A stretch of 29,086 bases of DNA, from the IMG/VR virus record IMGVR_UViG_3300008107_000273, positions 1 to 29,086 of that record. One strand, given 5' to 3'. This document shows positions 2,808 through 29,086 of the stretch, one piece after another. The position numbers and the translations under genes are program-made. Source of the stretch: a virus. The first letter of the stretch is position 1; every line of letters begins with the position of its first letter. A model generated the notes under the pieces. That model did not search any database, was not told where the DNA came from, and saw nothing but the letters and a program-made list of their open reading frames with translations.

Positions 2808-5213
2808 ATGTCAGTTACTCAGAAACTTGTAACAACAAATTTTAATGTAGAAAGCGCCGCAAGTTTTGTGAGCTCTTTTGCAAACAACGATTACTTTGTC
2901 TTTGCTGGTAAGCATACTCCATATCCTGGAAGTGATGCAAACCTAACTACACCGAATAATAGTTTGAAGTCAACAAACCTTGACGTCTATGATAACATGA
3001 TCTTCGCCAAAAGAATTTCTTCCAGCGATGTGGTGCATGTTGTCAACAAATATCTTTGGACTTCAAATACTTTCTATTACAAGTATGATCATCGTGATGG
3101 TGATCTTTACGACAAGAGATTTTACACCGTTGTAGACGATAGCACAGAGTTTAATGTTTATAAGTGCCTATTCAATGCTAGTAATACTACAGTCAATGTA
3201 AATTCTACTGTTGCTCCTTCAACAAAAACCCTAGATCCAATTATTACCGGCGACGGTTATATTTGGAAGTACATGTATAGCATCTCAAAAACACAATATG
3301 AAAAGTTTGCAACTGGGAATTATATTCCGGTTGTTGCTAATACAACCGTACAGGATGGTGCAGTTGACGGAACGATTGAAGTAATTGATATTATTACTCG
3401 CGGCCGTGGTTATGACAACTATATCGAAAACGGTGTGTTTAGAACAACCGATCTTTCAGTCGGAGGATCGAGCGAAGTTTATGGTGCACCTGATGATGCC
3501 GAAGCTGAAGATGACTATTACCGTGGTTGTGTAATCAAGATTACCAACTCTTCTGTAGGAGCTGCAGGACAATATCGTCGAATTGTTGATTATCGTGGTG
3601 TTGGTGGCCAGAAGATCTTTACTTTAGACTCTGCATTTACGACAGCACCCGCTGCTGGTGACGAGTATGAAGTCTATCCGTATGTTTATGTTTGGGGTGA
3701 TGGAACAGAAACTACTTCCGCTGAAGGAAGAGCTATTATAGATTCTACTGCCAATTCCATCGTAGAAATCGAAATGCTGAATGTTGGTGCTGGTTATCGC
3801 TATGGCGAATCATATGCTGGTAAAACACCAGATACTATTCCAGTTACGATTAATAGCGCTTTTATTGATCTTCCTGCTTCTATTGCAAATAATGCTAATT
3901 TCACGGCTGCAACACTTCAGCCGATTATTTCGCCAATCGGCGGGCATGGGGCTGATCCTCTTAAAGAACTTGGGGCAAGAAGAGTTTGCATCAGCACAAA
4001 ATTTACAAATAGCGAAGGCGGAACTATTCCAGTTGAGAATGATTTCCGTCAAGTCGGAATTGTAAAGAATCCTTTATTCACAAATGTAGATATTATTTTA
4101 AGATCGGCAAACACCGTCGGTGGCAGCTTTACGATCGGCGAAACAGTACATCAATTCAAGCAATATAAGCTACACGGAAACGTATCAGTAACCGCATCAA
4201 ATAGCACTATTAAGAAAACAGACCAGGGACGTATTTCATCAACTGTTACCATCACAAATGGCGGTACCGGATATAACAGTGCAGTTGATACAATTACTGT
4301 AAACAACACCGGCACAGGTGGATCTGGCTTTGCTGCGACCTTTGCTAATAATGGATCAGGTGTAATCACTTCGGTTACAGTAACCAATCAAGGTAATAAT
4401 TATGTTACGGTTCCAACACTTTCGATTAGTACAGCTACCGGTTCGAATGGTCAACTTGCGGTTGCACTAGCAAATCCGCAGACTCCGACATTTAAAGACA
4501 ATTTTGCTGTTGGGGATTATGTTTTAGTAACTAACGGAAGCAATAACTATCTTTCGACTGTTGCAAGTGTACCTTACGATTATCAGATTACTGCATCTAC
4601 CAATTCTACATTTACAGCCGACAACTGCGAAATTTCAGCTCTTGTTCTAGAGGCATCCGGAACAGTTACTTCGACAAGTGCCGGGCAAATTACACTTTCA
4701 AATGTTTCAGGGGTGTTTACAGAAGAATCAAAGATCATTGGTCTTACTTCGAATACGACTAGCATTATCCAGACAACTGCTCTTGCCGGTCAAGCTGCTA
4801 TTCAAGTCAATGATAAAACTGCAGGATCTTTTGATACGGCAGTTCAACTGTCAAGACTTGTTGGCAACTTCCCTTCAGGTGGTACAGACTTTATTTCTGA
4901 TGAAACCATTCAACAGAATAGCCTAGTAGAATATGCTAAGCCACGTGGCGCTTTCCACTCTATCAGTCTTGGCGGCGGTGTTGATGACGATGTCATGTAT
5001 ATCAGTAATAAATTTGGAATCTATAATCTAGACCCGGCTGGAGTAAGAAATATCGTTGGTGCAACTTCTGGCGCTACCCTTCAGAATTTGAGTAATAAAT
5101 ATCCTGGAGACTTTGTTGTTGGCAGCGGTCAAGTTCTATATATTGAAAATCTAGATCCGATTACTCGAAGCGGCAACAAATCAGAAATAATTAAGATAAT
5201 TTTGGAGTTCTAA
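2808..5213 (+). CDS. gp8: Baseplate wedge subunit gp8-like
   Basis: This is an 801-residue protein resembling T4 gp8, which bridges parts of the baseplate wedge. N-terminal landmarks are the TTNFNVESAASFVSSF start and NDYFVFAGKHTPYP (about residues 26-39, equivalent to the T4 segment after its N-terminal helix). Next come a YKCLFNA segment and GDGYIWKYMYSI (about 147-158), matching T4 GDGYVWEYLFEI. RQVGIVKNP near residue 410 matches T4 RQISIITNP, and the terminal VLYIENLDPI...EIIKIILEF matches T4 MIYMENRPPI...EINILFTF. T4 gp8 is 334 residues, so this homologue is much enlarged, mainly by beta-rich, Gly/Thr/Asn-rich sequence between about 425 and 700. The ATG follows GAGGA (2799-2803) and the upstream stop directly. 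It lies in the 7-8 order typical of T4-like phages. Confidence 0.88.
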   Translation: MSVTQKLVTTNFNVESAASFVSSFANNDYFVFAGKHTPYPGSDANLTTPNNSLKSTNLDVYDNMIFAKRISSSDVVHVVNKYLWTSNTFYYKYDHRDGDLYDKRFYTVVDDSTEFNVYKCLFNASNTTVNVNSTVAPSTKTLDPIITGDGYIWKYMYSISKTQYEKFATGNYIPVVANTTVQDGAVDGTIEVIDIITRGRGYDNYIENGVFRTTDLSVGGSSEVYGAPDDAEAEDDYYRGCVIKITNSSVGAAGQYRRIVDYRGVGGQKIFTLDSAFTTAPAAGDEYEVYPYVYVWGDGTETTSAEGRAIIDSTANSIVEIEMLNVGAGYRYGESYAGKTPDTIPVTINSAFIDLPASIANNANFTAATLQPIISPIGGHGADPLKELGARRVCISTKFTNSEGGTIPVENDFRQVGIVKNPLFTNVDIILRSANTVGGSFTIGETVHQFKQYKLHGNVSVTASNSTIKKTDQGRISSTVTITNGGTGYNSAVDTITVNNTGTGGSGFAATFANNGSGVITSVTVTNQGNNYVTVPTLSISTATGSNGQLAVALANPQTPTFKDNFAVGDYVLVTNGSNNYLSTVASVPYDYQITASTNSTFTADNCEISALVLEASGTVTSTSAGQITLSNVSGVFTEESKIIGLTSNTTSIIQTTALAGQAAIQVNDKTAGSFDTAVQLSRLVGNFPSGGTDFISDETIQQNSLVEYAKPRGAFHSISLGGGVDDDVMYISNKFGIYNLDPAGVRNIVGATSGATLQNLSNKYPGDFVVGSGQVLYIENLDPITRSGNKSEIIKIILEF

Positions 5214-5217
5214 ATAA

Positions 5218-8200
5218 ATGGCTCTGCAGACAGACCTAAACGTATTTCCATATTACGACGACTACGACCCGAACAAGAATTTCTATCGTGTTCTTTTTCG
5301 CCCGGGCGTGGCCGTTCAGGCACGTGAGCTAAATCAGCTACAGACTATTCTGCAGAATCAAATCGAACGATTTGGCGACAATATTTTCAAGCGTGGTACA
5401 ATCATTGAGGGTTGTAACATTGTTCGCCATCCAGTGCTGCCATTCGTCAAGATCAAAGACACCGAAACTGACGGAACACAAATTGCTGTTACTGCATACG
5501 AAGGTATGTCCGTTCGTAACAGTTCAAACGTAACCGGTTATATTGTCAAGACGGTTGCCGGGTTCGAATCGCGCGCACCTGATCTTAATACTCTCTATGT
5601 CAAGTACAATTCGTCGGGTTCTGATTCGAATACTTCGACATTTGCTGCCGGCGATACACTCACTGTATTCAGCCCACTTTATCCAATCTTTAAGACACGC
5701 GTAACCAACGGGTCATCGCTATTTAGTAATAATGATGGAGTTGTGTTCGTTTCGGCTCTTGCTGTACAGAACTCGACCGGGGGCGCAACATTCCCTGCCG
5801 CGGCATTCGTAGCAGGTCAAGTAATTCAGAACGGTGTTGCCAACATACAGATTATTGAAGCAAATACCACAGCAAATACTCAAGCTCTTATTCTTAAGGT
5901 GAAGCCGCTTGCTGCTGACCTTCTGACTGCAAACACGACAAAGTGGCGCTTCGGTGCTGGTGAAACTATTCGTAATGCAACAACTGCAAATACTGCAAAC
6001 GTTGTAGCCGTGATTGGTTCAGGTGCTGCTGGTTCTCTTGTAACAGACTCTCTCGGTAAGATTACTTCTATCTCTATTACCGGCCAAGGCGGTGGATACT
6101 ATGTTGCTCCACACGTAACTGTTATGAAGCAGACTACATCTTCGCTTTCAGCAACTGAAATTGCGGATCTCGATGTCACCGCTCTTAACTATATGGCCGA
6201 TGTGACTGTTGCTAACTCGTCGCTGACACCAGTCGGAACCGGTTATGGTGTAACGGTCGATGAAGGTACCATTTATCAGAAGGGCTTCTTCTCACGCGTT
6301 TCATCACAGCTCGTTGTTGTAAGTAAGTACTCGAACACAGACTTTGATAAGTCGGTTGGATTCTACACTGCAGAAGACATCATCGACAGCAACGAAGATA
6401 CTTCTCTTCTAGACAATGCTACTGGCACATACAACTACGCTGCTCCTGGCGCAGACCGTCTGAAGTTGACTCCAGAACTTCGCGTTCTTGACAAAGAAGA
6501 AGCTGATGCAAATACAGACTTCCTTCCTGTCATCGAGTTCGCTGATGGTCGTCCATACAAGCAAACACAGAGCACTGTTTATAATGTTATCGGTAACGAG
6601 ATTGCTAAGAGAACATATGAGGAGTCTGGTAACTATGTTCTAGACCAGTTTATTCTTTCTACTCGCGATTCTTCTACATTCTCTGAAACACCATCTGTCT
6701 TCAAGATCAACGTTGATCCAGGTAAAGCCTACATCAATGGTTTCCGTGTAGAGACAGAACACTACAGAGCAAATGTCGCCAAGGGTATTGCAACCGCAAC
6801 CAATAATTCGGCTAAGATTCGTCTTGGATACGGAAACTTTGTTCGCGTAAATCAACTGGCTGGTAACTTTGCTTTCAACCTCGGAGCTCAGATCGATCTC
6901 CAGAGCGCAGCTGCTACTTATGTTACATCGAATGCCGGCAACACAATCACAGCCGCTGGTACTAAAATCGGCGAAGCTCGCATTCGTTCAATAACTCTTG
7001 AATCTGGTGAACCAGGTTCTGCCAATGCCGTGTACAGGCTGTATCTATTTGATATCGTCATGAGCAGCGGCAAGAACTTCGGTGCTGTACGTTCTGTTTA
7101 TTACGGTGGAACAAACAGAGGTGTTGCAGATATTGTTCTTGGTGCATCTGGTGCAGCAGTGCTAGAAGATGCCGGAGCCAGTGCTCTTCTTTATAGCTCT
7201 GTTCCTGCTATGAAGTCAGCATCAAATATCTCCTACACATATCGTACAATTAACGAATCAGAAACTGCAAACACGACAGGATACATTGAACTAAATCTTG
7301 GTACCGGTGAAAACTTCCCTTATACTGGTGCACTAGGCACTACTGCTAAGAGAGAACTTCTTGTTATACCGAAAGCCAACTATCAGGCTTCTGCTGCGGC
7401 AACAGGAACAATTTCAATCGGCGCTGGATCTACTTCAAATACAATCGTTGCTGGTGCTGGTGGTACAAACTTCTTGAATGTATTTAGTGCCGGCGACTTT
7501 GTCAAGTTCGCAAATAGCACCGGCGGTACAACTGTAATTAGTCAGGTTGCTCAGGTGACTGGCGCGTCGTCGATGATTCTTACAGCTGGTCCAGGGCAAA
7601 CATACAGTGGTGGTACAGCGACTCTATATTTCCCAGCCAATGTTCCTATTTCACTAACAAACAAAGCATCGCGCTGGGCGAACGTAAGCGTTTCGAACAG
7701 CCAAGTCATGACTATCTACCTTGCAAACAATATTGCAAACTCGACAGGTAGCTCGTCATCTGCTAACGTAATGGTGATCTACAACGCTACGCGAAACAAT
7801 GTAAGCTCGGCTGTAAAAACATCAAACCGCTCAGTTCACACCCGCCTCGTGTGCTCTAACAATGCTGGTGGTGTGCGTGGACCATGGGCTCTTGGTCTAT
7901 CTGATGCTTTCCGTCTCAGAAAAGTATATCAAGCCAACGGTGCTTCTACTGCAAAGACGTTCAATGCCAATACCGGTGTTTTAAACTCCGGCACTGCAAA
8001 CGCATTTATTCAGATTTCCAACAATCCATTTGCTAATGGAGATTCACTTGTTTACGCGGACAATGCTACAACAATTACAGGACTATCTGACGGCGGAACA
8101 TACTATGCTGTATATGCCAATAGTAGCGGTATGGCTCTTGCTTCTACTCGTGGTGGAGCCAATCTAACTCTTACCGCGACAGGAACATCTGAGAACCATA

Positions 8201-17623: not shown

Positions 17624-17895
17624 CTTTTAACGTAAGAGTAAATCCGAATCCTGAAACAAAGATCGTTGCTAAGGTTACAAACAATAACGGAGTGCTTTCT
17701 TCAGGCACTCCTGTTACTGTTAAAAACCAGTTCCGTGAATATCAGATCAATAGCATCGAGGATCTACCAAACGTAGATGAGATAAATGTCGGCAGTGGAT
17801 CTACACTGGTGTTTAATGCTAACACCAACAAGTATGAAGTAAAGCCGCTCGATGCTACTAACATCACTGGAATCATTGACGGCGGAGAGTTTTAA
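17620..17895 (+). CDS. Small fibre-associated protein
   Basis: This 91-residue protein starts on the ATGA overlap with the preceding gene. The first half (MTFNVRVNPNPETKIVAKVT, then GTPVTVKNQ) looks like a short beta segment. The second half (SIEDLPNVDEINVGSGSTLV, then FNANTNKYEVKPLD and a final GIIDGGEF) is the 'I.D..DVD......G..LVYN..T.KYEV.PL' motif that links fibre domains in many phages. It therefore reads as a small fibre component rather than an enzyme. It is the last plus-strand gene before the strand switch, and its stop codon overlaps the stop of the convergent methyltransferase gene. Confidence 0.7.
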   Translation: MTFNVRVNPNPETKIVAKVTNNNGVLSSGTPVTVKNQFREYQINSIEDLPNVDEINVGSGSTLVFNANTNKYEVKPLDATNITGIIDGGEF

Positions 17896-17903
17896 ACTCT
17901 TTT
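17886..17903 (+). terminator. Possible weak terminator hairpin at convergent gene ends
   Basis: AGAGTTT-T-AAACTCT is a perfect 7-base inverted repeat centred on the overlapping stop codons of the two convergent genes, followed on the plus strand by TTTT. A hairpin with a usable loop would have only about four or five pairs and little G+C, so termination here would be inefficient. On the minus strand no T-run follows. Confidence 0.25.
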
Positions 17904-19133
17904 GAAATGATAGTCTCCATCCACGTTACCTACGTGGATTCTAGTCACTAACTCAAATCCAATAATGTTAAGATACTCTGTAACCTCGGCAACATCCGGG
18001 GCTCCAATATTATATTCTACATGTTGCATTTCAATGATGATATCTTTACAGTTTGCTAGAGTTTCTTTCGCACCAGCAAGGACAAGCAACTCTGCTCCTT
18101 GCACATCAATCTTTACTAGATCTGGTAAAGGATAATTTCGCTCTTTTACGATATCATCGAGAGCTCTCATCTTTTTATCAACAGCATGTTCTTCTGTAAA
18201 GAACTGCGTATCTTCCTTGTACACAGAGTTGCCGGCAGGATCCATAGCATTCTCGTAGAACTTTACCCAGAGTGTTTCGTCACCGATTGGGCCGTCACAA
18301 TAATAATCAAGACCAGATTCCTTATAGAGGAACTCTGCATGATTCATAGCATCAAACATTACGATCTTTGAGTCTGGCCAGATCTTACGAGCTTCCTTGG
18401 TCCAGTGCATGACGCACGCACCGATATCATAGATTACTTTGGGCTCTACACCTTCAAGCATCATTCCATGTAGATAGTCGACATGATCTTTCGGTTGGTC
18501 ATCTCGTAAAGACAGTTCTCTTAATCTTGTCTCAATCGGATTTTCAACTGGGACCTGCACATGCATGGTGGTTGAACCAATGTGACCGCAGAGGATCGAA
18601 GGATTACACCAGAGCTTGAATCCCTTATTCATTGCTTTCTTACAGAAGTCTGTGTCTTCACTAATCGTGTTACCATGATCGAGGGCTGGATGATACTCGA
18701 ACTGCGGATAACCAATTCCCGCAATCACCTCTTTCTTGACAAGAACACAACCGAATCCACAACCACCGATTGGAACCAGTGGTTGACCATAGATCTGTTC
18801 GATTGTCATACGCTGTTGATTTAAATCGTAGATCTCAATTGCCTGCGGCTCGAGTCTCTGACGATACACACCAGCTACAAGATCCACATCATGAGCCAGC
18901 ATCTTCTTCAATGTGTCAGGAGGAAACGTGATATCATGATCTACCGAGAACAGGTAATCGTATCCACGAACGACCCAGTCACAGATCAGATTACGAACCT
19001 GATCGACTCGATAACCATAGAAGTATTGAAAGGTCGTTTCATATCCTTCTGGAATCTCGAGATTATAGATCGACTTGAATGTGTCTGCTTCGATATAACG
19101 AGCGGTAGGAATTGCAATTAGGATCTTTTTCAT
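17892..19133 (-). CDS. Glycosyltransferase-FkbM methyltransferase fusion
   Basis: This is a 413-residue two-domain enzyme. Residues 1-195 resemble GT-A glycosyltransferases: the start KKILIAIPTARYIEA, then QVRNLICDWVVRGYDYLFSV followed by DHD (D65, D67; DxD-type metal and nucleotide-sugar site). PPDTLKKMLAHDVDLVAGVY, SEDTDFCKKA (158-167, candidate catalytic acid region) and GHIG (183-186) follow. Residues 230-413 resemble FkbM-family SAM-dependent O-methyltransferases: VIYDIGACVMHW (233-244, SAM motif I) and DLVKIDVQGAELLVLAGA (338-355, the family signature). Motif I has Met242 where Gly is usual. Its ATG overlaps the stop of the upstream double glycosyltransferase (ATGA), so the two form an operon. 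The predicted role is transfer of a sugar and methylation of a glycan, probably in the host cytoplasm. Substrate is unknown; phage fibre, host surface glycan or other acceptors all fit. Confidence 0.8.
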   Translation of the reverse strand: MKKILIAIPTARYIEADTFKSIYNLEIPEGYETTFQYFYGYRVDQVRNLICDWVVRGYDYLFSVDHDITFPPDTLKKMLAHDVDLVAGVYRQRLEPQAIEIYDLNQQRMTIEQIYGQPLVPIGGCGFGCVLVKKEVIAGIGYPQFEYHPALDHGNTISEDTDFCKKAMNKGFKLWCNPSILCGHIGSTTMHVQVPVENPIETRLRELSLRDDQPKDHVDYLHGMMLEGVEPKVIYDIGACVMHWTKEARKIWPDSKIVMFDAMNHAEFLYKESGLDYYCDGPIGDETLWVKFYENAMDPAGNSVYKEDTQFFTEEHAVDKKMRALDDIVKERNYPLPDLVKIDVQGAELLVLAGAKETLANCKDIIIEMQHVEYNIGAPDVAEVTEYLNIIGFELVTRIHVGNVDGDYHFKRV

Positions 19134-21172
19134 AACGGTCTCAAATCAATCTGTCCTGGGATAAACGGGCTCTTGTTCAATACTTTTGCTGCAGTCTTAT
19201 TCTGCTCTTCTGCATTTACCTTATAATCATTCAATGGATTTGCATCATTGTAATGATACACAATATCAGGAATGCAAACAACTCTATCTGGTTCTGCTGC
19301 TTCAATCATCGCATAGAATACCGCAGTATCACCGCCGGCCTTTAGCCAGTTACCATTCTCATCTTTAAAGGCTGAATCGCCGTGAGTGGTAAGATGATAT
19401 CTCATAAGATGAGCGCGGAACGTACGCAGGTGAGTGTATGGCATGTTCCAGTTAAACTTATAATTACGATAAGCTCTATTTGCTTTGACTTCCGGAGGAT
19501 ATTCTTGAGCAATCAAAGGAATGTTATCTACTACTGACCAACACGATCCATAGGTAAATTCTGCTCCATCATTATAGATGTTATTGTACTTATCAAAGAG
19601 ACTTGGATCATTAACAAGCCAATCATCACCATCAAGAAGCATAATAATATCAGAACTGTACTGACTCGCAATATTTTTTACTTGATTTGCCACAGCACCA
19701 TAATTTTGTTCGTTGCTAATAACAATAAACTTTCCTTGAATCTCTTGTGGCAATCTATCGATTACTTGGCACGCAATCTTATGTGTATCATCAGTCGAGT
19801 TATCGTCGATGATATACATCTCATAGTTTGAATAATTTTGTTGAGCAACCGAAAGAATGCATCGCTCAATATATTTTTCAGCGTTATAGACAGGTGTGAC
19901 TACAATAATAGTATTTTCATCATTCTTTGGTTCTACCATCTCTTCAGCATTTAAGAATCGACGGTTGAATACCTTACGAACCTTTGTATTGATCTTCTGA
20001 ACCCGGCGATACTCGTCAACCGGCAAATACTCTCCGAGCTTCTTGTAGAGATGTTGCTTCCACTGAAGAGCAACGGTATCCCAACCACAAATATCCTTGA
20101 CCTGATTGCAAGCATACATCTTCTGCTGGTGGAGATACGGAGTATTATACGCCTCTACGACCTTATCAACAAAGATGTTTACCTGTTGTTCTTGGTTGAG
20201 CCAAGGAAGAGCCCAGTTAGGTTCTACCGGATACTTGATCTTCCATGAAGCCAGATCGATAGCCGTCTCTTCAAGTGCGCCGAAGATGCAGGTGATGAGT
20301 GGAACGTTATGAGCCAGAGCCTCGAGAGTAGAGATACCGAACGTCTCTGGAAATCCGGCTGGATAGATCATATAGCTGGCTTTACGTAGGATATCAGAAA
20401 TCTCCGGCTGAGTAATTACGCCGGTGAAGTGAATATCCTTGCCGTGTTGAAGAGCAAGTTCCGTCCAGTCTTTCTGCTGCTGATCTGGTCCTGCCGCTTC
20501 ACGGAACTTATAGTAGCCACCAATGATTGTCAACTTAGCGTCTGGAATTCTGCGCTTGACCTCCGGCCAGATCTGCTTGACTAGTGGTACCATTCCCTTG
20601 GTAACAGATGCATTAAAGACAAAGAGGTTCGGATCTTTTTCTCGAACATCGATCCAACCTGGATTCATGTTTCCAATGCCGTTACGAGTCATGAAGATAT
20701 GATTCTTGAGAACATCGTAGTTACGACGGAATCCATGGTCGCAGTGAGTGACGTAGCCGGTATGCCAGTCTGAAAGAGTAAAGATCTCTTGTAGTTTACC
20801 TTGGTTAATCAGATACTCGATCTGATCATCGCCTTCGCAGAACGTATCATGCATCCAGAGACAGACATGCTTGGAATTTTTAACTGCTAACCAGTCTTCT
20901 GCAATAGGCTTGATAGAGCGTGAAACAATACACACATCATACTCATTAAAATGAGTACGAGCAGCATTTACTGGAGTGTAGATTACGGCGTTGTAAAGCC
21001 CTGGTCGCGAGTCATCTGACATACAGTCGTTGAAGACCGTGACGTCGAATCCAATCTTTGCGAGTTCTTCGGCCATGCGAATGACGGCTGATTCGGATCC
21101 TCCTAGTCCTCTCTTTGAGAGAGTGGATCCGTCGTACGTAAGACCGAGCGTATCAATAAAAGCTATCTTCAT
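19130..21172 (-). CDS. Bifunctional glycosyltransferase, GT4 plus GT2
   Basis: This is a 680-residue protein from the ATG at 21172 (MKIAFIDTLGLTYDGSTLSK). An in-frame TTG at 21202 would add ten residues but lies between the -35 and -10 boxes of the promoter, so it is unlikely. The N-terminal half is GT-B fold, GT4-like: RGLGGSESAVIRMAEELAK (21-39), FVFNASVTKGM, KLTIIGGYYKF, and FPETFGISTLEALAHNVPLI (274-293) with the E-x7-E pair E276/E284. The C-terminal half is GT-A fold, GT2-like: TIIVVTPVYNAEKYIERCIL (421-440), DD at 456-457 and LLDGDDW (512-518, metal-binding DxD). Two fused transferases suggest sequential addition of two sugars. No signal peptide or membrane helix is seen, so action is cytoplasmic. 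It is the first gene of a minus-strand pair inserted between collagen-like fibre genes. The acceptor is not known. Confidence 0.87.
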   Translation of the reverse strand: MKIAFIDTLGLTYDGSTLSKRGLGGSESAVIRMAEELAKIGFDVTVFNDCMSDDSRPGLYNAVIYTPVNAARTHFNEYDVCIVSRSIKPIAEDWLAVKNSKHVCLWMHDTFCEGDDQIEYLINQGKLQEIFTLSDWHTGYVTHCDHGFRRNYDVLKNHIFMTRNGIGNMNPGWIDVREKDPNLFVFNASVTKGMVPLVKQIWPEVKRRIPDAKLTIIGGYYKFREAAGPDQQQKDWTELALQHGKDIHFTGVITQPEISDILRKASYMIYPAGFPETFGISTLEALAHNVPLITCIFGALEETAIDLASWKIKYPVEPNWALPWLNQEQQVNIFVDKVVEAYNTPYLHQQKMYACNQVKDICGWDTVALQWKQHLYKKLGEYLPVDEYRRVQKINTKVRKVFNRRFLNAEEMVEPKNDENTIIVVTPVYNAEKYIERCILSVAQQNYSNYEMYIIDDNSTDDTHKIACQVIDRLPQEIQGKFIVISNEQNYGAVANQVKNIASQYSSDIIMLLDGDDWLVNDPSLFDKYNNIYNDGAEFTYGSCWSVVDNIPLIAQEYPPEVKANRAYRNYKFNWNMPYTHLRTFRAHLMRYHLTTHGDSAFKDENGNWLKAGGDTAVFYAMIEAAEPDRVVCIPDIVYHYNDANPLNDYKVNAEEQNKTAAKVLNKSPFIPGQIDLRPL

Positions 21173-21181
21173 TATGTTTCC

Positions 21182-21209
21182 ATTATAAATAATTTGAAGC
21201 AAATGTCAA
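21182..21209 (-). promoter_or_regulatory. Consensus sigma70 promoter for the glycosyltransferase operon
   Basis: Reading the minus strand, TTGACA (21209-21204) and TATAAT (21187-21182) are both perfect hexamers separated by 16 bases. The expected transcription start is about 21175, only three bases before the ATG at 21172, which would give an almost leaderless mRNA. It is the only perfect pair I noticed in the window and lies in the only sizeable divergent gap, which supports function. It implies recognition by the host's housekeeping RNA polymerase, that is, early or continuous expression. Confidence 0.65.
21184..21191 (+). promoter_or_regulatory. T4-type late promoter for the giant fibre gene
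   Basis: An exact TATAAATA octamer lies in the divergent intergenic region, 65 bases before the ATG at 21256. Initiation about 12-13 bases from the first base (near 21196) would give a leader of about 60 bases carrying two palindromes and the AAAGAGG ribosome binding site (21245-21251). It shares four bases (21184-21187) with the -10 box of the opposing sigma70 promoter. Late sigma (gp55-type) recognition is established for T4; its use here is inferred. Confidence 0.6.
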
Positions 21210-21255: not shown

Positions 21256-24200
21256 ATGGCAAACACATTACCCATTGTTCACAAGAGAACTTCAGTATCT
21301 GGTCGTTTGCCAGAAGCAGCCAATACAGCTAATACCCGTTATATTTATCCCGGTGAGCTGTCGATTAACCTCACAGACCAAAAAGTTCATACTTCGAATG
21401 GCAGTGCTATCTTCGAGGTCGGCTCGAACGTTTCCACACTAAGAGTTGAATCCATTGTAGCAAATGGTTCTGTTGGCGTAGATGGTTATCATCTTGTATC
21501 CAACGGAAGTGCTGTATATTGGTCAGATGATCGTGGATTTACGGGATCTCGTGGTTTTACTGGGTCACAGGGTGCGGGTTTCACCGGATCTGCAGGTACT
21601 CCTGGTCCTACAGGCCCAGCTGGATCTTTAGGCTTTACCGGCTCTCAGGGTTATGATGGTTCTCAAGGATTTACCGGTTCGGTAGGATTCATTGGATCTA
21701 CCGGCTTTACCGGATCACGAGGTTATGATGGTTCTCAAGGATTTACCGGTTCAGTAGGATTCGTTGGATCTACCGGCTTTACAGGATCTTTAGGCTTTAC
21801 AGGTTCACAGGGCACAGGTTTCACCGGTTCTGCAGGTGCCCAAGGTCCTCAAGGTCTTACGGGATTTACTGGATCACAAGGTGATACAGGTCCACAAGGA
21901 ACTTCAGGATTTACCGGTTCGGCATCTACGACAGCTGGTCCTCAAGGTATTATTGGTTTCACCGGATCTCAAGGACAAACAGGACCGCAGGGTGCAACCG
22001 GATTCACAGGATCAAAAGGCGATCTTGGTTTCACCGGTTCACAGGGTGCCGGATTTACTGGATCGGCCGGATCTCAAGGTCCACAAGGATCTCTAGGATT
22101 CACCGGTTCTCAAGGTGATACAGGTCCTCAGGGCGCAACTGGATTTACTGGGTCTCAAGGTGTAGGATTTGCCGGTTCGAAGGGCGATACTGGCTTTACA
22201 GGTTCAATTGGTTTCACTGGATCAGCATCTACAGTTCCAGGACCGCAAGGATCTTTAGGATATACCGGGTCTGAAGGACCAGTTGGACCGCAGGGAACCA
22301 CTGGATTTACAGGATCTGTTGGAGCAACCGGTCCTCAGGGACCAATTGGTTATACCGGATCTTCTGGGTTTGCCGGATCAGTTGGTTTTACCGGCAGTAA
22401 AGGTGATACCGGCTTTACAGGATCTGAAGGACCAACCGGTCCTCAGGGTATTATTGGTTTTACAGGATCACAGGGAGACACAGGTCCTCAGGGAGCGACC
22501 GGCTTCACAGGAAGTCGTGGCGATACAGGATTTGTTGGTTCTAGAGGATCTACGGGCTTCACCGGTTCTCAAGGCGATATTGGTCCGCAAGGTACAACCG
22601 GATTTACTGGTTCTGTTGGCGCCCAAGGTCCACAAGGTAACGTTGGATTTACCGGATCTCAAGGCGATGTTGGTCCACAGGGTACAACCGGTTTTACTGG
22701 TTCGCAAGGTGCGCAGGGTCCGCAAGGTAACGTTGGATTTACAGGATCGCAGGGTAATACCGGATTTGTCGGCTCGACAGGTGATCAGGGCCCAATAGGA
22801 TTTACTGGTAGCCACGGCGCGCAAGGCCCAACCGGTTTCACCGGTAGCCAAGGAGCGACTGGACCACAGGGGGCAACAGGATTCACCGGATCACAAGGAC
22901 CACAGGGTGTAATCGGTTACACCGGCTCAAAGGGCGACCAAGGAACAGCCGGCTTTACTGGATCTCAAGGTGCGCAGGGTATAACTGGATTTACAGGATC
23001 ACAAGGTGACCAAGGAACAACCGGCTTTGTAGGATCTACCGGTTTCACCGGCTCAAAGGGAGATGCAGGCTTTACCGGCTCTCAAGGCCCGATCGGATTT
23101 ACTGGATCTGAAGCAAATATTGCAGCACACGAAGCAGCAGCAGATCCTCACCCACAGTACACTACAACTATTGACGTTGCAACACTCACCGGCGACGTTC
23201 ATGGTGTTGTAAGTCGTTCTGCTTCTCAGTTGTACTTTAATGATGCAACACGAGAGTTTAAGATCGCTCCTACCGGTTCTTCATGGACATACTACCACCA
23301 TGGTAATCTTCACACGATCAGTGCAAACCTGACCGTAACAATCGCGAATACCTCTGGTGCTCGATTCATCAAGATCGATCCAACATCGAATACGCTGATC
23401 GAAGGCGGTCCAGTACCAAACTTCAAAGACGATTCGATCGTATCTTACATTTACTATAATGCTGCCGATGCCAAGGGTATCATTCTTGGTGACGAACGCC
23501 ATGGCTTTGAAAGAGATACCACATGGCACTCTGCACAGCACTTAAATCTTGGTACTGTCTGGAGATCTGGTGGTACATTATCTTACACACTCAACGATGC
23601 AAACAATGTTAGTATCGGTGTCGGTACTCCACTCGTTATCGCTGACGAAGATCTAATCCATACAATTACTCACTCTGCTTCTCCGTCTGCAGACTTCCAG
23701 CAGGTTCTAAACACCGCGGCTTCACTTGAAGTACTTTATCTTAGCGGCACGGCTTATACTGACACCACAGCAAATACTGTTCCGTGGGTAGCAGGAACTT
23801 CGCTTGCTCGATACAACTCTGTGACTGCGGGAAGTGGTTCACTCGTTGATGCTAACGAAGGCGAGTACATTACATACTGGCTGATCGCTACGAACGATAT
23901 TCGCTATCCAGTAAAACTTGTTATGGGTCGAGCATCTCATGCCTCGATCGACGATGCATATGCAGAAGAGTTCCAAGAATATGGATTGTCTTTTGCTGAA
24001 CAGGTGTTCATGTATCAGATCGTTCTGAAAACAAGTGCGTCTTATACTACTAATACACCAAAGGTTGTTATTGCTGCAGTTCGTAAGGTAACAAGTAAAC
24101 TTGCTGCAACTGCGTCAACCGCTACTGCAACAGACCACGGAACTCTTACCGGAAGAGACTCTGCTGATTCGCACACTATTGGTGCTATCACAGGCCTGCA

Positions 24201-26685
24201 AGCAAACCTTGATTCTAAGCAAGCAACACTTGTATCTAACGTTAATATCAAAACTATTAATGGCCAAACCATTCTTGGTTCTGGTAATATTAACGAAGTA
24301 GGATACACCGGATCACAAGGTACAACCGGATTCACTGGATCTGCAGGAACTCAAGGAGCTACTGGATTTACAGGTTCACAAGGATCCGTAGGATTTACTG
24401 GATCTGTTGGTGCTCAAGGACCAACTGGATTCACCGGATCACAAGGTACCACTGGATTTACTGGATCTGAAGGCGCACAAGGTCCACAGGGAATTGCGGG
24501 TTTCACCGGATCACAAGGTGCTACCGGTCCACAGGGCGCAATTGGATTTACTGGTTCGCAGGGACCACAGGGTAACATCGGATTTACTGGTTCTATCGGC
24601 GATCAAGGTCCGATAGGATTTACCGGTTCTCAAGGACCAATTGGTTTCACAGGTTCTCAAGGTGCGCAGGGCGATGCCGGTTTCACTGGAAGTCAAGGTA
24701 CACAGGGTAACATCGGATTTACTGGTTCAATAGGTTTCACGGGTTCTCAAGGCACTCAAGGTAACATTGGATTTACCGGATCTCAGGGTACACAGGGAAC
24801 TACAGGTTTTACTGGATCTGTAGGATTTACCGGGTCACAAGGTGCACAGGGCCCTCAAGGAGAGATTGGCTTTACTGGAAGTCAGGGTGCAACAGGTCCT
24901 CAAGGTGCAACCGGATTCACCGGATCGCAAGGTGATACTGGTTCAACCGGCTTCACCGGCTCGATAGGTGCTCAAGGACCGACTGGATTCACTGGTTCGG
25001 TAGGCGCTCAAGGACCGCAGGGCAATGTCGGTTTCACCGGAAGCCAGGGTACCCAGGGTGAGATCGGTTTCACCGGAAGCCAGGGTGCTCAAGGGCCACA
25101 GGGTACAGTAGGTTTCACCGGTTCTGTAGGATTTACCGGATCTGTTGGTGCACAAGGTCCACAAGGTAATGTTGGCTTTACCGGGTCAGAAGGCGCTCAA
25201 GGACCACAGGGTGCAACTGGATTCACCGGATCCCAAGGCAGTGTCGGCTTCACTGGAAGTCAAGGTACTCAAGGCGACCAAGGTCCAATTGGATTTACCG
25301 GAAGCCAAGGTCCACAAGGAACTACTGGTTTCACTGGTTCTGCAGGCTTTACAGGATCTGCATCAACCATTGCTGGTCCAACTGGATTTACTGGTTCTGA
25401 GGGTCCAGTCGGACCACAGGGTAATATTGGATTCACTGGTTCTCAGGGTACAACAGGACCGACCGGTTTTACCGGATCTCAAGGTACAATTGGGCCAGAG
25501 GGACCACAGGGTGCAACCGGCTTTACCGGATCTCAAGGTGCGCAGGGTCCACAAGGAGAGATTGGTTTCACCGGAAGCCAGGGTGCTCAAGGTAATGTTG
25601 GTTTCACTGGAAGCCAAGGCACACAGGGCGATGTTGGCTTTACCGGATCAGCAGGCTTTACTGGATCTGCTGGTTTCACCGGTTCTGTAGGATTTACCGG
25701 GTCTACTGGATTTACAGGATCAGCAGGCTTTACTGGATCTGCTGGTTTCACCGGTTCCGTTGGGTTTACTGGATCTGCCTCTACTGTCGCGGGACCAACT
25801 GGATTTACGGGATCACAAGGAGATCCAGGACCAACAGGATTTACCGGCTCGGGCGGTGGCGGATCTGGAACAAGTATTATCAACGGTACTTCTAACGTTA
25901 ACATTGCCACATCTGGTGGATCTGTTACCGTTGCAGTTGCCGGTTCAACTGTCGCGACCTTCAACTCTGCTAACCTTGTTATTGGTACAGGAAGCGGCGG
26001 AGACATTCTAAACGCCGGAACTATTTCTGGTACGACTATCCAGGGATTCATCCAGCCAACGGCCGGTACAACATCGACAGCACCGATCGACTTGGTTCCA
26101 GGATCACTGCTTTCTACTCCTGTTATCGGTGCGATTGAAATGGACGGCAACGCCATCTACGTTACCGAAAACACCACATCCGGTCGCGGTGAGATGGGTG
26201 TATTCCACCAGTATCGTCTGACTACTGATAGCTCGGCGTTCGGTCCTGGTATCACCGACTTCTTCCCGGCGACATCATCTATTCAGCTAGAGGCCAGCTC
26301 GATCTACGAGATCGACGCGCAGGTTTGGTTCTTGAAGACCACTGCCGGCACGGCAACGTGGACATGGACTGCATCATCAGCAGCTTCGATGATGCGTAGT
26401 TATTATGTCGGTACAGCGGTTACAGGTTTTACTACAACAATCACGACTGCTGCTCCTATTGGTGGTATCGCTGCGCAGCAGACCGCAACAGCCATGGCTC
26501 ATGCTGCTACGGCTTCTCTTACAACTGCTGTAAACCATCACTATCACTTTAAACTTCACGTATGGACAAACGCGGCTACTAACCTTCGTCTGAGATTAAC
26601 TCAATCTGCTGGTACTGCTACTCCGAGAGCAGGCAGTTATTATTCAGTAAGAAAGATTTCTACGAACGCTGGTACCTTCGCTTAA
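21256..26685 (+). CDS. Giant tail fibre with two collagen-like rods
   Basis: This is an 1809-residue protein; AAAGAGG (21245-21251) fixes the ATG. Residues 1-93 are an attachment-type N-terminus containing the phage-fibre motif [19 protein letters not shown]. Residues 94-619 form collagen-like rod 1, dominated by GFTGSQG, with phase breaks (GAG, GTG, GVG; GSAST-x-x-GP). Residues 620-1015 are a globular or beta region starting [14 protein letters not shown], a classical fibre motif, and ending [14 protein letters not shown] and [16 protein letters not shown], also typical linkers. Residues 1016-1537 form rod 2, and residues 1538-1809 are a C-terminal head after a GGGGSG hinge, with [20 protein letters not shown] and a His cluster [11 protein letters not shown] (1760-1770). 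It is probably a long adsorption fibre; the head may bind the receptor or hold the adhesin encoded next. It is likely late-transcribed from 21184. Confidence 0.87.
21535..23112 (+). repeat. Collagen-like rod 1 of the giant fibre
   Basis: About 526 residues of Gly-X-Y repeats, mostly GFTGSQG with GPQ, GAT and GDT triplets. Phase is broken at least four times by a one-residue deletion (GAG, GTG, GAG, GVG) and twice by [10 protein letters not shown] or [11 protein letters not shown] 72-base (24-residue) near-identical duplication starts at 21649 and 21721. Confidence 0.9.
24301..25866 (+). repeat. Collagen-like rod 2 of the giant fibre
   Basis: About 522 residues of Gly-X-Y repeats, similar in make-up to rod 1, interrupted by [10 protein letters not shown] and [10 protein letters not shown]. 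Near its end a 72-base duplication (41 identical bases at 25645-25685 and 25717-25757) encodes a run of GFTGSAG/GFTGSVG units. Confidence 0.9.
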
Positions 26686-26696
26686 TGGTGAAATAG

Positions 26697-27824
26697 ATGC
26701 CTACTAAAACATATTTGTTTACATCTCCAACAAACTCGATACAATCTTGGACCCTTCCATCTGATTGTGACGTGAGTCAACCGGTCAAAGTAATTTGTGT
26801 AGGCGGCGGTGGTGGAGGCGGCAGAGCGCAAGCCTCCGGTGGTGGCGGTGGTGGTGGCGGTTGGTCACATTCTAATATTACATGTACTGCAGGACAGACT
26901 ATATGGTGGTTTGTCGGTGCTGCAGGTACCGGCGCTCCGGCCGCGCTCACCACAGCGGGTGCCGCTTCAGGTACCGCCGGAGGCAACACATGGGTAAATA
27001 AGTCTACAAACAGCGCTCCCACAACAGCCACAGATGGAGCTTTGGCAAATGGTGGAGCAAGTACCGGTACAACCTTCGGCGGTGCAGGAGGTTCTACCAC
27101 TGGAGCAATTGGACAAACAACTTTTGCAGGTGGTAACGGCGGAAACGGCGGAAACCTTAACGGCGCCGGTGGAGGTGGTGGCGGTGGTGCTGCAGGATTG
27201 TTCGGTAATGGATTTGCTGGAGGCAGCTCTCCTGCTACTTCTACTGCCGGCGGCGGCGGTGGTGCTGGAAGCGGTGGTGTCGGGATTAACTCTCCTAGTA
27301 CAACCCAGGGTCCAGGCGGAAATGGTGGTATTGGAACCGCGGGTCCGTTTAATCAGAATGCAGCTGCAATAAGCGGCGGTGCAGGTGGTGCTTCTCAAAC
27401 CAATGGAAGCAACGCGCCAGGCACCTTTCCTACTGCCGGCGGAGGTGGAGGTGGAGGTGGAGGAAGATCTACTCCAAACAACTCAACCGCAGGTAGTGGC
27501 GGAAACGCATCGTTTACCAATGCTATTCCTGTAGATTTTGAAAACGGTACTGCTGCTCTACCTGGTGCGCACACTGGTCCTGGTGGTGGTGGCGGAGGCG
27601 GAGGAGGTCATAGTGCCGGCGGTTCAACCACCGGTGCAGGTGGTAATGGTTCTTTCGGTGGTGGCGGTGGTGGTAGTGGCGGAAACGCGACAACTACAGG
27701 TACAACTCTTGCTAAAGGCGGTGAAGGTAGCGCTGGATTCGCATTGATTATATACACTGTTAAAGATTCCGTAACAGTCAACAATACAACTCTACGTAAT
27801 ATCACCACAACTTGGGTAGCATAA
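26697..27824 (+). CDS. Polyglycine adhesin-like tail fibre protein
   Basis: This is a 375-residue protein. The N-terminus (YLFTSPTNSIQSWTLPSDCD, then VKVICVGGGGGGG) matches the start of phage glycine-rich domain proteins: a short beta unit, then 'v.v.GGGGGGG'. About ten glycine runs of six to nine residues or GGNGG-type segments follow through residue 350. It ends KGGEGSAGFALIIYTV and a small Asn/Thr tail. Such proteins pack parallel polyglycine II helices; T-even and S16-type gp38 adhesins use this fold at the fibre tip with variable loops between glycine runs binding receptors. Its place directly after the giant fibre gene (11-base gap) mirrors T4-like gene 37-38 order. A tip adhesin or receptor-binding protein is the best inference, but sequence homology to gp38 is not shown. 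Confidence 0.78.
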   Translation: MPTKTYLFTSPTNSIQSWTLPSDCDVSQPVKVICVGGGGGGGRAQASGGGGGGGGWSHSNITCTAGQTIWWFVGAAGTGAPAALTTAGAASGTAGGNTWVNKSTNSAPTTATDGALANGGASTGTTFGGAGGSTTGAIGQTTFAGGNGGNGGNLNGAGGGGGGGAAGLFGNGFAGGSSPATSTAGGGGGAGSGGVGINSPSTTQGPGGNGGIGTAGPFNQNAAAISGGAGGASQTNGSNAPGTFPTAGGGGGGGGGRSTPNNSTAGSGGNASFTNAIPVDFENGTAALPGAHTGPGGGGGGGGGHSAGGSTTGAGGNGSFGGGGGGSGGNATTTGTTLAKGGEGSAGFALIIYTVKDSVTVNNTTLRNITTTWVA

Positions 27825-27825
27825 C

Positions 27826-29058
27826 ATGGCAAACGTAGTATACACATCTACAAATACTTCTTCTCAGGCAATCGATACATTCGATCTGCCGACAGAGAAG
27901 GTTATCAACTATAAAGTCCATGTAACTGCAGGAAACACCACGTGGTATTCTCTGTTGGATGTCAGTCACAACGGAATCCAAGCCTCTGAACAACAAACTG
28001 CTCTGGCACAGACTGGAATTACTCCACTCGAGTTTGTAGTATCGATTGCAAATAACAGTGGCACCGTTAATGTCACACCTACTGTGATACCAACTACGTT
28101 TAGCATCGAAAGGTTGGCTACACTCTGTAACCTGTATTCAGAGAATACACTGAGTGGAAGAAACATTCAGACTGAAGAAGGTCTTGGTATCTATTTTAAT
28201 AGCGCAAATAATATTACTATTCGCCAATCAAATAATAATGTATTCGCATACGCAAATGCATATATCACATCTGGTGTAATGGGTCCGATCAAGACTAAGT
28301 CAAATATTCTGAGTGAATGGACTGCAGCAAACGGATCTATTCGTACGATTGATGGTGACTATCAGGTTGCAATCTCATCCGGTCAAAAAGATAATTGCCA
28401 GACTCAAGAAATTGCTGTATCTCCAGGCAAAAGATATATTTTAACTGGAAATGCTTATTATACAACAGATCAAAACTATTCGCACACTCTAGAAGATAGG
28501 GATACGGGCCCGTCCCGAATTGAAATTGGCACGCGTTTTGGAGATAATGACTACGGCGGTTATATTGCAAATACTTCAGACAATGCATTCTCTATTGTGT
28601 TTTCACCAACCTCAAATAGTGCTCATGTATCATTTGGCTTTGGTGATATCAATAACCGGCTTTTTGTGAAAAATATCGAATTAAAAGAATATGTACCATT
28701 CCATACATACAACCAAGACGAAGGTGCTATCTATATCAAGTGGGATGCAGTTGCTGCCGGAAATACCATCCTCAGTTTAAATTCAAACAACGCAAATAAT
28801 AGAATCTATGTCGATTCTTCAAATAATATATTCGTTAATACCACTAACTGTGGTTCTCAACAGGTAACAAATAAAATTGTATTGAATTATAACGCAGACG
28901 GAATAAGTATAAGTCGAAACGGAAATTCTATCATCACGGCATCAGAAACTTTCAATAAATATATTGCAAATGCAGTTTTTGCTTCAATTCCATATGAGTT
29001 TGCATACATGTCAAGCAATATATCAAACACCGTAATGGTAGCGCTATCGAATGTCTAA
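27826..29058 (+). CDS. Beta-rich fibre or decoration protein with sugar-binding-like modules
   Basis: This is a 410-residue protein starting one base after the preceding stop. Residues 1-95 (ANVVYTSTNTSSQAIDTFDL, then WYSLLDVSHNG) form a small beta domain seen in several T4-like marine virion proteins as I recall. Residues about 160-290 (ILSEWTAANGSIRTIDGDY, SPGKRYILTGNAYY, then FVKNIELKEY) resemble jelly-roll carbohydrate-binding modules. Residues 295-375 (DEGAIYIKWDAVAAGNTILS, NNANNRIYVDSSNNIFV, KIVLNYNADGISISRNGNSI) resemble a laminin-G or concanavalin-like fold common in phage particles. Together this suggests glycan contact at the fibre tip or capsid surface. No catalytic motif is seen. 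Confidence 0.65.
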   Translation: MANVVYTSTNTSSQAIDTFDLPTEKVINYKVHVTAGNTTWYSLLDVSHNGIQASEQQTALAQTGITPLEFVVSIANNSGTVNVTPTVIPTTFSIERLATLCNLYSENTLSGRNIQTEEGLGIYFNSANNITIRQSNNNVFAYANAYITSGVMGPIKTKSNILSEWTAANGSIRTIDGDYQVAISSGQKDNCQTQEIAVSPGKRYILTGNAYYTTDQNYSHTLEDRDTGPSRIEIGTRFGDNDYGGYIANTSDNAFSIVFSPTSNSAHVSFGFGDINNRLFVKNIELKEYVPFHTYNQDEGAIYIKWDAVAAGNTILSLNSNNANNRIYVDSSNNIFVNTTNCGSQQVTNKIVLNYNADGISISRNGNSIITASETFNKYIANAVFASIPYEFAYMSSNISNTVMVALSNV

Positions 29059-29086
29059 AGATACAATTCACTTATTTAATAATGTT
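29051..29086 (+). CDS. Start of a further gene, truncated by window end
   Basis: An ATG at 29051 overlaps the end of the preceding gene by eight bases and stays open to the window end (MSKDTIHLFNNV). The hydrophilic start and the overlap style fit this cluster, but only twelve codons are visible and no strong ribosome binding site precedes it. No function can be assigned. Confidence 0.4.
   Translation, partial: MSKDTIHLFNNV

Follow-up and report, generated by a model that had tools for sequence, protein, structure and literature searches.

The window analysed here, taken from IMG/VR, is a virus record with a length of 29,086 bases. At positions 26697–27824 of its plus strand there is an ATG-initiated open reading frame of 375 amino acids, termed P0001, which follows the gene of a giant collagen-like fibre (fibre B). 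The question raised by this locus is whether P0001 is a separately encoded adhesin that sits at the tip of the fibre, as a first-pass annotation had proposed. Phage adhesins rich in glycine are difficult to detect from their sequence, and a 2026 paper describes the question of how they are distributed among phages as an interesting problem (PMC13243795). The family described here was assembled from uncultured phages, T4-like and others, with the help of sequence patterns and comes with a usable structural model. Nature also provides a comparison here, with different solutions for the end of a fibre found in one and the same slot.

The glycine-rich gene

P0001 contains 117 glycine residues, which is 31% of the protein. 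There are seven runs of five or more glycines, with lengths of 7, 8, 7, 5, 9, 9 and 6, all encoded on the plus strand. These are at amino acid positions 36–42 (nt 26802–26822), 48–55 (nt 26838–26861), 158–164 (nt 27168–27188), 185–189 (nt 27249–27263), 248–256 (nt 27438–27464), 296–304 (nt 27582–27608) and 321–326 (nt 27657–27674). Six of the seven fall in the range of six to nine glycines given by the first-pass annotation, and their number is far above the shuffled expectation: 20,000 shuffles of the same residues gave a mean of 0.21 and a maximum of 3 runs of six or more (observed 6), and a mean of 0.71 and a maximum of 5 runs of five or more (observed 7). By a simple rule, 16 segments of the protein are glycine-dense. 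The codons of the glycine runs are a mixture of GGT, GGC and GGA, thus it is at the level of the protein that the pattern is kept, and a DNA microsatellite is ruled out as the origin of the runs.

The fibre B stop codon is at 26683–26685, and 11 bases separate it from the P0001 ATG. The P0001 stop is at 27824 and the ATG of the next gene, P0002, is at 27826, which leaves one base between the two. The start codon of P0001 is supported by the aligned family members (alignment A6, see below), whose starts agree within about three residues. In the Pfam scan P0001 matches a single family, the composition-heavy Gly_rich_2 (PF21722), at 31.9 bits, which is above the curated cut-off of 24.3. It also matches phrog_2295 (function unknown) at 26.7 bits. 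The N-terminus is thus of the general phage glycine-rich type, as had been recognised.

Predicted fold of P0001

The AlphaFold2 model of P0001 made with A6 has a pLDDT of 75.0 and a pTM of 0.80; a model from the single sequence had a pLDDT of 35.6 and was discarded as uninformative, thus the fold rests on a shallow alignment. Predicted beta strands are at residues 3–8, 16–19, 30–35, 56–61, 68–72, 98–101, 114–117, 141–143 and 348–355. The chain begins at the first strand and the model has no helix of four or more residues. Residues 1–35 (nt 26697–26801, plus strand) encompass the first three strands of a putative TNF-like base, and the family profile aligns to gp24, the tail fibre of cyanophage Pam3, in this same region. 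The strand at residues 348–355 (nt 27738–27761, plus strand) is predicted to close the base and is followed by a low-confidence tail at residues 360–375. The pLDDT is under 50 in this tail and at residues 217–220, 238–243, 246–249, 275–278 and 280–295. The model displays TNF-like beta strands at both chain ends with glycine-rich loops between them, which is the arrangement of the TNF-like and glycine-rich domain proteins of the Pam3 gp24 distal type.

The closest solved folds to the model (Foldseek, VIA-align 2) are the Pam3 fibre gp24, the Bxb1 tail tip and ALK/LTK. There is a gap below the ALK/LTK block, where the next row has a Z of 3.1. A search of 177,635 PDB sequences with the A6 profile gave only Pam3 gp24 (two entries) up to E 1, with an E-value of 2e-10 and a best stretch of 1e-6, values for which glycine bias is a caveat. 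P0001 alone gave no match to the PDB sequences. In BFVD, 192 predicted viral proteins match the P0001 model at E 0.001 or better, and many among the 50 matches listed are glycine-rich domain-containing proteins by name.

Because of the Pam3, Bxb1 and ALK fold matches, the profile match and the BFVD matches, the predicted fold class of P0001 is one that is already known. This applies to the fold class and not to the polyglycine packing. Pam3 provides a known example of the TNF-like/glycine-rich domain, and Bxb1 one of polyglycine-rich parts at a tail tip (PMC13252515). The reading of the first-pass annotation is supported in so far as a glycine-rich receptor-binding-type fold is predicted. Based on sequence, profile and model, the gene is described as encoding a predicted TNF-like and glycine-rich receptor-binding protein of the Pam3 gp24 distal type.

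The family and its conservation

As the sole query, P0001 detected only a near-identical contig, and P0001 is identical in this second contig. A search with the fibre N-terminus led to contig L052, which has a homologous fibre B, then 2 bases, then a 339 aa glycine-rich protein with 49% identity to P0001; glycine bias inflates alignments and identities such as this one. Extension from L052 gave 16 distinct contig groups that contain family members, with the window's group included and duplicates merged. Alignment A6 has 15 rows and leaves out the split genes of L064 and L071, the divergent and open-ended L094, and duplicates. Entropy was computed on 13 of these rows, with L075 (a near duplicate of L074) and the truncated L077 dropped.

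Mean column entropy is 0.50 bits in the glycine runs, 0.92 at other glycines and 1.58 at non-glycine positions, a contrast that follows in part from aligning on glycines. The idea that variable loops separate conserved runs holds for these averages. However, the non-glycine segments GGxTWxN, APTxxxxGxLANGG and TTGAIG are strongly conserved, therefore not every loop is variable. Length variation in A6 is strong around residues 81–90, 121–130, 181–200, 211–240, 281–290, 301–310 and 331–340. PF21722 is matched at E 0.01 by ten of the 15 aligned members, and its cut-off was passed in only two of the 16 records in a genome search.

Searches of isolated phages by tblastn with P0001 or its first 83 residues, queries that are largely of low complexity and filtered by BLAST, gave no match, and nothing was found with P0004. 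P0005 (from L063) matched two phage records, solely outside of its glycine-rich part. No relative was confirmed when genome contigs of bacteria and archaea were scanned twice, and as these scans used two patterns each, absence there is weak. The patterns of a viral scan with alignment A5 fell on glycine runs, and at least one locus was confirmed. Among six T4-like isolates searched, Gly_rich_2 is above the cut-off in three (P-SSM2, S-CREM1 and syn9), and the A6 family profile matches one, S-CREM1. The P-SSM2 gene is located between gp16 and gp17. The S-CREM1 gene matched by A6 encodes a 1117 aa collagen-like protein and is located after psbA. These two positions, apart from fibre genes, speak against a strict link of the domain to fibres. 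In syn9 there are two Gly_rich_2 genes, which follow a putative fibre at a distance of several genes.

The glycine-rich gene is split in L064 (positions 1309–2459) and L071 (positions 2155–4899) at the same alignment position, after AGGNGGA. A stop codon is followed by an immediate ATG and by 17–25 codons of differing sequence, after which the glycine-rich part resumes; in L064 the split also shifts the frame. This may represent a split adhesin, an insertion scar or a sequencing problem.

Gene neighbourhood among relatives

When a small inserted open reading frame is set aside, the nearest upstream gene is of fibre type in 12 of the 16 contig groups. The location directly after a fibre-type gene, which had been pointed out for the window, is thus recurrent. 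The upstream gene is a collagen-like fibre in the window, L052 and L096. In L070 and L071 it has matches to tail-fibre PHROGs together with a phrog_3030 end. The upstream protein is phrog_3030-ended in L066, L073, L074, L077 and L088, and in L062 and L069 it ends in a phrog_3030-type domain by pairwise similarity (the L069 protein is only 132 aa). As phrog_3030 is annotated as ‘unknown function’, the fibre label of proteins with this ending is partly interpretive. Four groups (L063, L064, L078 and L094) are without a fibre gene upstream. The proteins of L063, L078 and L094 are longer and have the glycine-rich domain as their N-terminal part, thus not every member can be assigned a tip position. 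The open-licence papers searched gave no description of a TNF-like/glycine-rich gene that is free-standing and forms a pair with a collagen-like fibre.

Seven free-standing members (L062, L066, L069, L070, L073, L074 and L088) end in a short hydrophobic tail, e.g. GNMFLMF or NFFFLFG. All seven follow a phrog_3030-type end, whereas the tail-less proteins of the window, of L052 and the two of L096 do not; the members compared are related, and the comparison excludes L077 (cut off), L071 and L064 (split), and L063, L078 and L094 (longer). The hydrophobic C-terminal tail, which is missing from P0001, is possibly a docking peptide.

A small protein of 60–67 aa is found immediately upstream of the glycine-rich gene in eight of the 16 contig groups and is absent from the window. 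It is located at 5819–5998 in L066, 5798–5998 in L077, 3811–4008 in L088, 1967–2149 in L071, 5818–5997 in L078, 4615–4797 in L063, 1119–1292 in L064 and 5642–5998 in L070, the last with two tandem copies. In the four tested (L066, L070, L077 and L088) it is phrog_14370 or phrog_18617 (function unknown). It could be a dedicated folding helper, and we take it to resemble Tfa N-termini. The suggestion that it is a chaperone like Pam3 gp25 is unsupported, as profile searches gave nothing in the PDB and nothing convincing in Pfam. L096 (positions 3690–5960) has two tandem glycine-rich paralogues of 347 and 353 aa directly after a 939 aa collagen-like fibre. The last 120 aa of this fibre are related to the L052 fibre end (31–34% identity).

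The source phage and the slot before P0002

An 801 aa open reading frame at position 2808 of the window matches T4 gp8 (Pfam); 488 phage records match it, all under 60% identity. The portal protein of a related contig has 50–54% identity to 15 listed phage portals (cyanophages and one Stenotrophomonas phage) and is matched by 2503 phage records, all under 60% identity. The gp8 match and the distant portal matches place the phage, as judged from sequence, in an uncultured T4-like group. In pelagimyophages and cyanomyophages a hypervariable host recognition cluster lies between VrlC and gp14, and the fibre, glycosyltransferase and methyltransferase genes of the window resemble this cluster as it appears in the cited part of the source (PMC7029224). 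The window's glycosyltransferase and FkbM-type methyltransferase genes are at 17892–21202 on the minus strand, between two collagen-like fibre genes. A glycosyltransferase homologue precedes fibre B in L037, L043, L045, L048, L052–L054 and L056–L059.

Fibre B (positions 21256–26685, plus strand), the presumed carrier of P0001, is a giant collagen-like tail fibre of 1809 aa. It has 19 Pfam collagen stretches (Pfam Collagen, 466 bits) and matches PHROG tail fibre families. Its non-collagen C-terminal part (25930–26685, plus strand), presumably the distal end, is without a Pfam or PHROG match. A scan with most of this part gave matches confined to the same population, and the fibre end of the window is unlike the fibre ends seen in other contigs. 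In the near-identical contig IMGVR_UViG_3300021599_001523 (L046:2490–7855) the fibre open reading frame is broken into 1681 and 98 aa near the C-terminus; the window copy is intact.

P0002 (positions 27826–29058, plus strand) is an orphan protein of 410 aa that forms the 3′ boundary of a variable slot. It has no Pfam, PHROG or PDB match, and tblastn against isolated phages was also empty. It is present at 28 loci in IMG/VR, with an identity of 67–84% in 25 and 100% in the other three. The next fibre gene starts at 29051–29086 (plus strand; MSKDTIHLFNN...), where it is cut by the window end, and has a counterpart in L042. P0002 is thus placed between two giant fibre genes and is a possible connector.

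The DNA upstream of P0002 is readable in 22 of the 28 loci; L003, L004, L016, L023, L024 and L029, with too little or no upstream DNA, were excluded from the count. A glycine-rich gene is in the slot in one of the 22, the window's population, and there is something else or nothing in 21. In ten loci the giant fibre runs straight into P0002 and its last residues are near-identical; Pfam Peptidase_S74 was found on all four of these ends that were tested. Five loci have a 160 aa protein between the fibre and P0002. The L020 copy has matches to Phage_tail_APC and to tail fibre assembly families of PHROG; L021, L022, L027 and L028 have a 160 aa open reading frame with the same ends. Three loci have a 201 aa protein, sulfotransferase-like where tested (L015), and the protein that precedes it in L015 has no Pfam or PHROG match. 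At one locus (L005/L048) there are three proteins, each about 280 aa long and alike at the start; two of them were compared with PHROGs and gave no match. In L025 there is a 273 aa stretch without a Pfam match. The slot before P0002 thus accommodates several means by which the fibre is completed or decorated. In L026 (693–5299) P0002 abuts an opposite-strand glycosyltransferase open reading frame with no giant fibre gene between; either fibre B has genuinely been lost there, or repeats may have collapsed in the assembly.

A Gly_rich_2 search of 29 records matched the window and its near-identical contig at the P0001 gene. Four relatives (G006, G007, G010 and G012) carry a different glycine-rich gene further downstream. 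This gene encodes a protein of 256–257 aa with the N-terminus MTLQTSGAITLAQIQTEFGG (L038:6475–7245 and L040:9765–10532 for G006 and G010; also in G007 and G012). L042, L047 and L049 have proteins with a similar N-terminus and without the glycine-rich end. The sequences suggest that domain swapping may also take place at this downstream gene.

Proposed role of P0001 and alternatives

The fold class, the family, the recurrent gene position and the variable slot were computed. The reading that we favour, and hold to be reasonably probable, is that P0001 is a free-standing TNF-like/glycine-rich receptor-binding protein that probably caps fibre B. The N-terminal strands together with the C-terminal strand would form a TNF-like beta base, and the glycine runs would extend from this base as a packed bundle of polyglycine-type strands. 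The connecting loops, several of which are variable in sequence and length, would provide the binding surface. P0001 would most likely be attached as a cap at the distal end of fibre B, and the slot between fibre B and P0002 would be a site where alternative fibre endings are exchanged: an S74 self-chaperoned end, a fibre with a separate assembly chaperone, or an add-on adhesin of the P0001 type. As related phages carry quite different genes in this slot, P0001 is probably an exchangeable host-recognition part. Its presence in the virion, attachment to fibre B, oligomeric state, receptor binding and role in host range are what we infer.

A virion adhesin of the same fold might instead be carried by the baseplate, by P0002 or by the next fibre (MSKDTIHLFNN). 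This is rather unlikely, yet it is the alternative to which several arrangements point: P0001 and P0002 are nearly adjacent (stop 27824, ATG 27826), the family member of L070 follows a different fibre and a 119 aa open reading frame, L063, L064, L078 and L094 have no fibre-type gene before the family member, and the two Gly_rich_2 genes of syn9 lie several genes beyond the putative fibre. However, the glycine-rich gene follows a collagen-like fibre in L052 and L096, where P0002 is not adjoining, and where P0002 is present the glycine-rich gene is missing before it in 21 of the 22 readable loci. We regard as improbable a role as a fibre assembly factor or chaperone that is not part of the mature virion, as T4 gp38 is for gp37. 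The gene position is like that of T4 gene 38 as given in the cited passages (PMC6851490), and a tail assembly chaperone occupies the slot at five loci (L020; L021, L022, L027, L028), but P0001 matches a receptor-binding fibre domain in fold and sequence and not a chaperone, and the glycine-rich bundle with variable loops of its family also argues against this role. It seems very improbable that P0001 is a cassette that was captured recently and does little or nothing in the window phage. Only the window's own population carries it among the 22 readable P0002 loci, but its 375 codons are uninterrupted, a second contig has an identical copy, the strand and glycine pattern is kept across 15 aligned members, and family members recur beside fibre-type genes.

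A broader proposal is offered tentatively, and we would not yet call it probable. The free-standing TNF-like/glycine-rich protein may be a portable host-recognition cartridge that is moved among unrelated fibres (collagen-like and phrog_3030-ended) and phage types, with its C-terminal tail suited to the end of the fibre that it plugs into. In the host-recognition clusters of T4-like phages it may be one of several interchangeable finishes of the same giant fibre, alternating with S74-ended and chaperone-dependent fibres. If the receptor-binding role of P0001 and its family is confirmed, genes of this kind would show where host range is determined in phages that only metagenomes have revealed.

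Comparison with known systems

The Pam3 tail fibre gp24 (PDB 7YFW and 7YPX) has Z values of 17.3 and 16.3 to the P0001 model, and the best match has an rmsd of 2.7 over 193 residues with 30% identity over the aligned residues. TNF-like strands and a glycine-rich domain are common to gp24 and the P0001 model. The 16 glycine-dense segments of P0001, counted by the simple rule, compare with 12 glycine-rich motifs reported in gp24. In the cited part of its description, Pam3 gp24 has an N-terminal alpha-helical shaft that docks to the baseplate, and there is a chaperone, gp25 (PMC9608196). Unlike gp24, P0001 is without such a shaft; it begins at the predicted TNF-like base and follows a separate giant fibre. 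As regards a chaperone gene of the Pam3 type, the 11-base gap is too short for an open reading frame, P0002 is without a family and the small open reading frame profile gave no convincing match in the window. A gp24-like fibre is present in a Klebsiella phage, where infection was restored by mutations in the glycine-rich domain (PMC12671077).

The tail tip of mycobacteriophage Bxb1 (9D93, chains Qa/Qb) has a Z of 15.4 to the P0001 model for chain Qb, with an rmsd of 3.6 over 192 residues. The central fibre of Bxb1 has polyglycine-rich domains associated with it (PMC13252515), which offers a precedent for a glycine-rich part at a tip. The Bxb1 structure is a siphophage tail tip and not a collagen-like fibre, and its Qa/Qb would be separately encoded, judging from the chain listing. 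The glycine-rich (TG) domain of ALK/LTK, an animal receptor kinase, displays a TNF-like base with a glycine-rich insertion, as does the P0001 model. ALK/LTK have Z values of 7.6–8.2 over 141–159 residues, with ALK the best at 8.2 (rmsd 2.8, 143 residues), and a Z near 8 is modest.

Like gp38 of T-even phages and S16 (6F45), P0001 is separately encoded by a gene beside the distal fibre gene, and its glycine runs alternate with variable segments. In S16, gp38 caps gp37 and docks on it through helices at its N-terminus that bear three tryptophans; it also has a beta-helix, and its distal loops have a bearing on host range (PMC6851490). These docking helices and tryptophans are absent from P0001, as its model has no helix. 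PDB sequence searches with P0001 and with the A6 profile gave no S16 gp38 up to E 1, and the Pfam library presumably holds a gp38 model. 6F45 is also absent among the listed fold matches, which by itself is not evidence of a different fold. Membership of P0001 in the T-even gp38 group is ruled out by the missing attachment helices and the lack of a gp38 sequence match. The likeness to T-even genes 37 and 38 drawn in the first-pass annotation thus survives as an analogy of layout; beyond the layout it is not supported, since P0001 starts at a predicted TNF-like strand, has no helix and finds its match in Pam3 gp24. Having neither the Pam3 helical shaft nor the gp38 attachment helices, P0001 combines a predicted Pam3-type domain with an S16-type gene layout.
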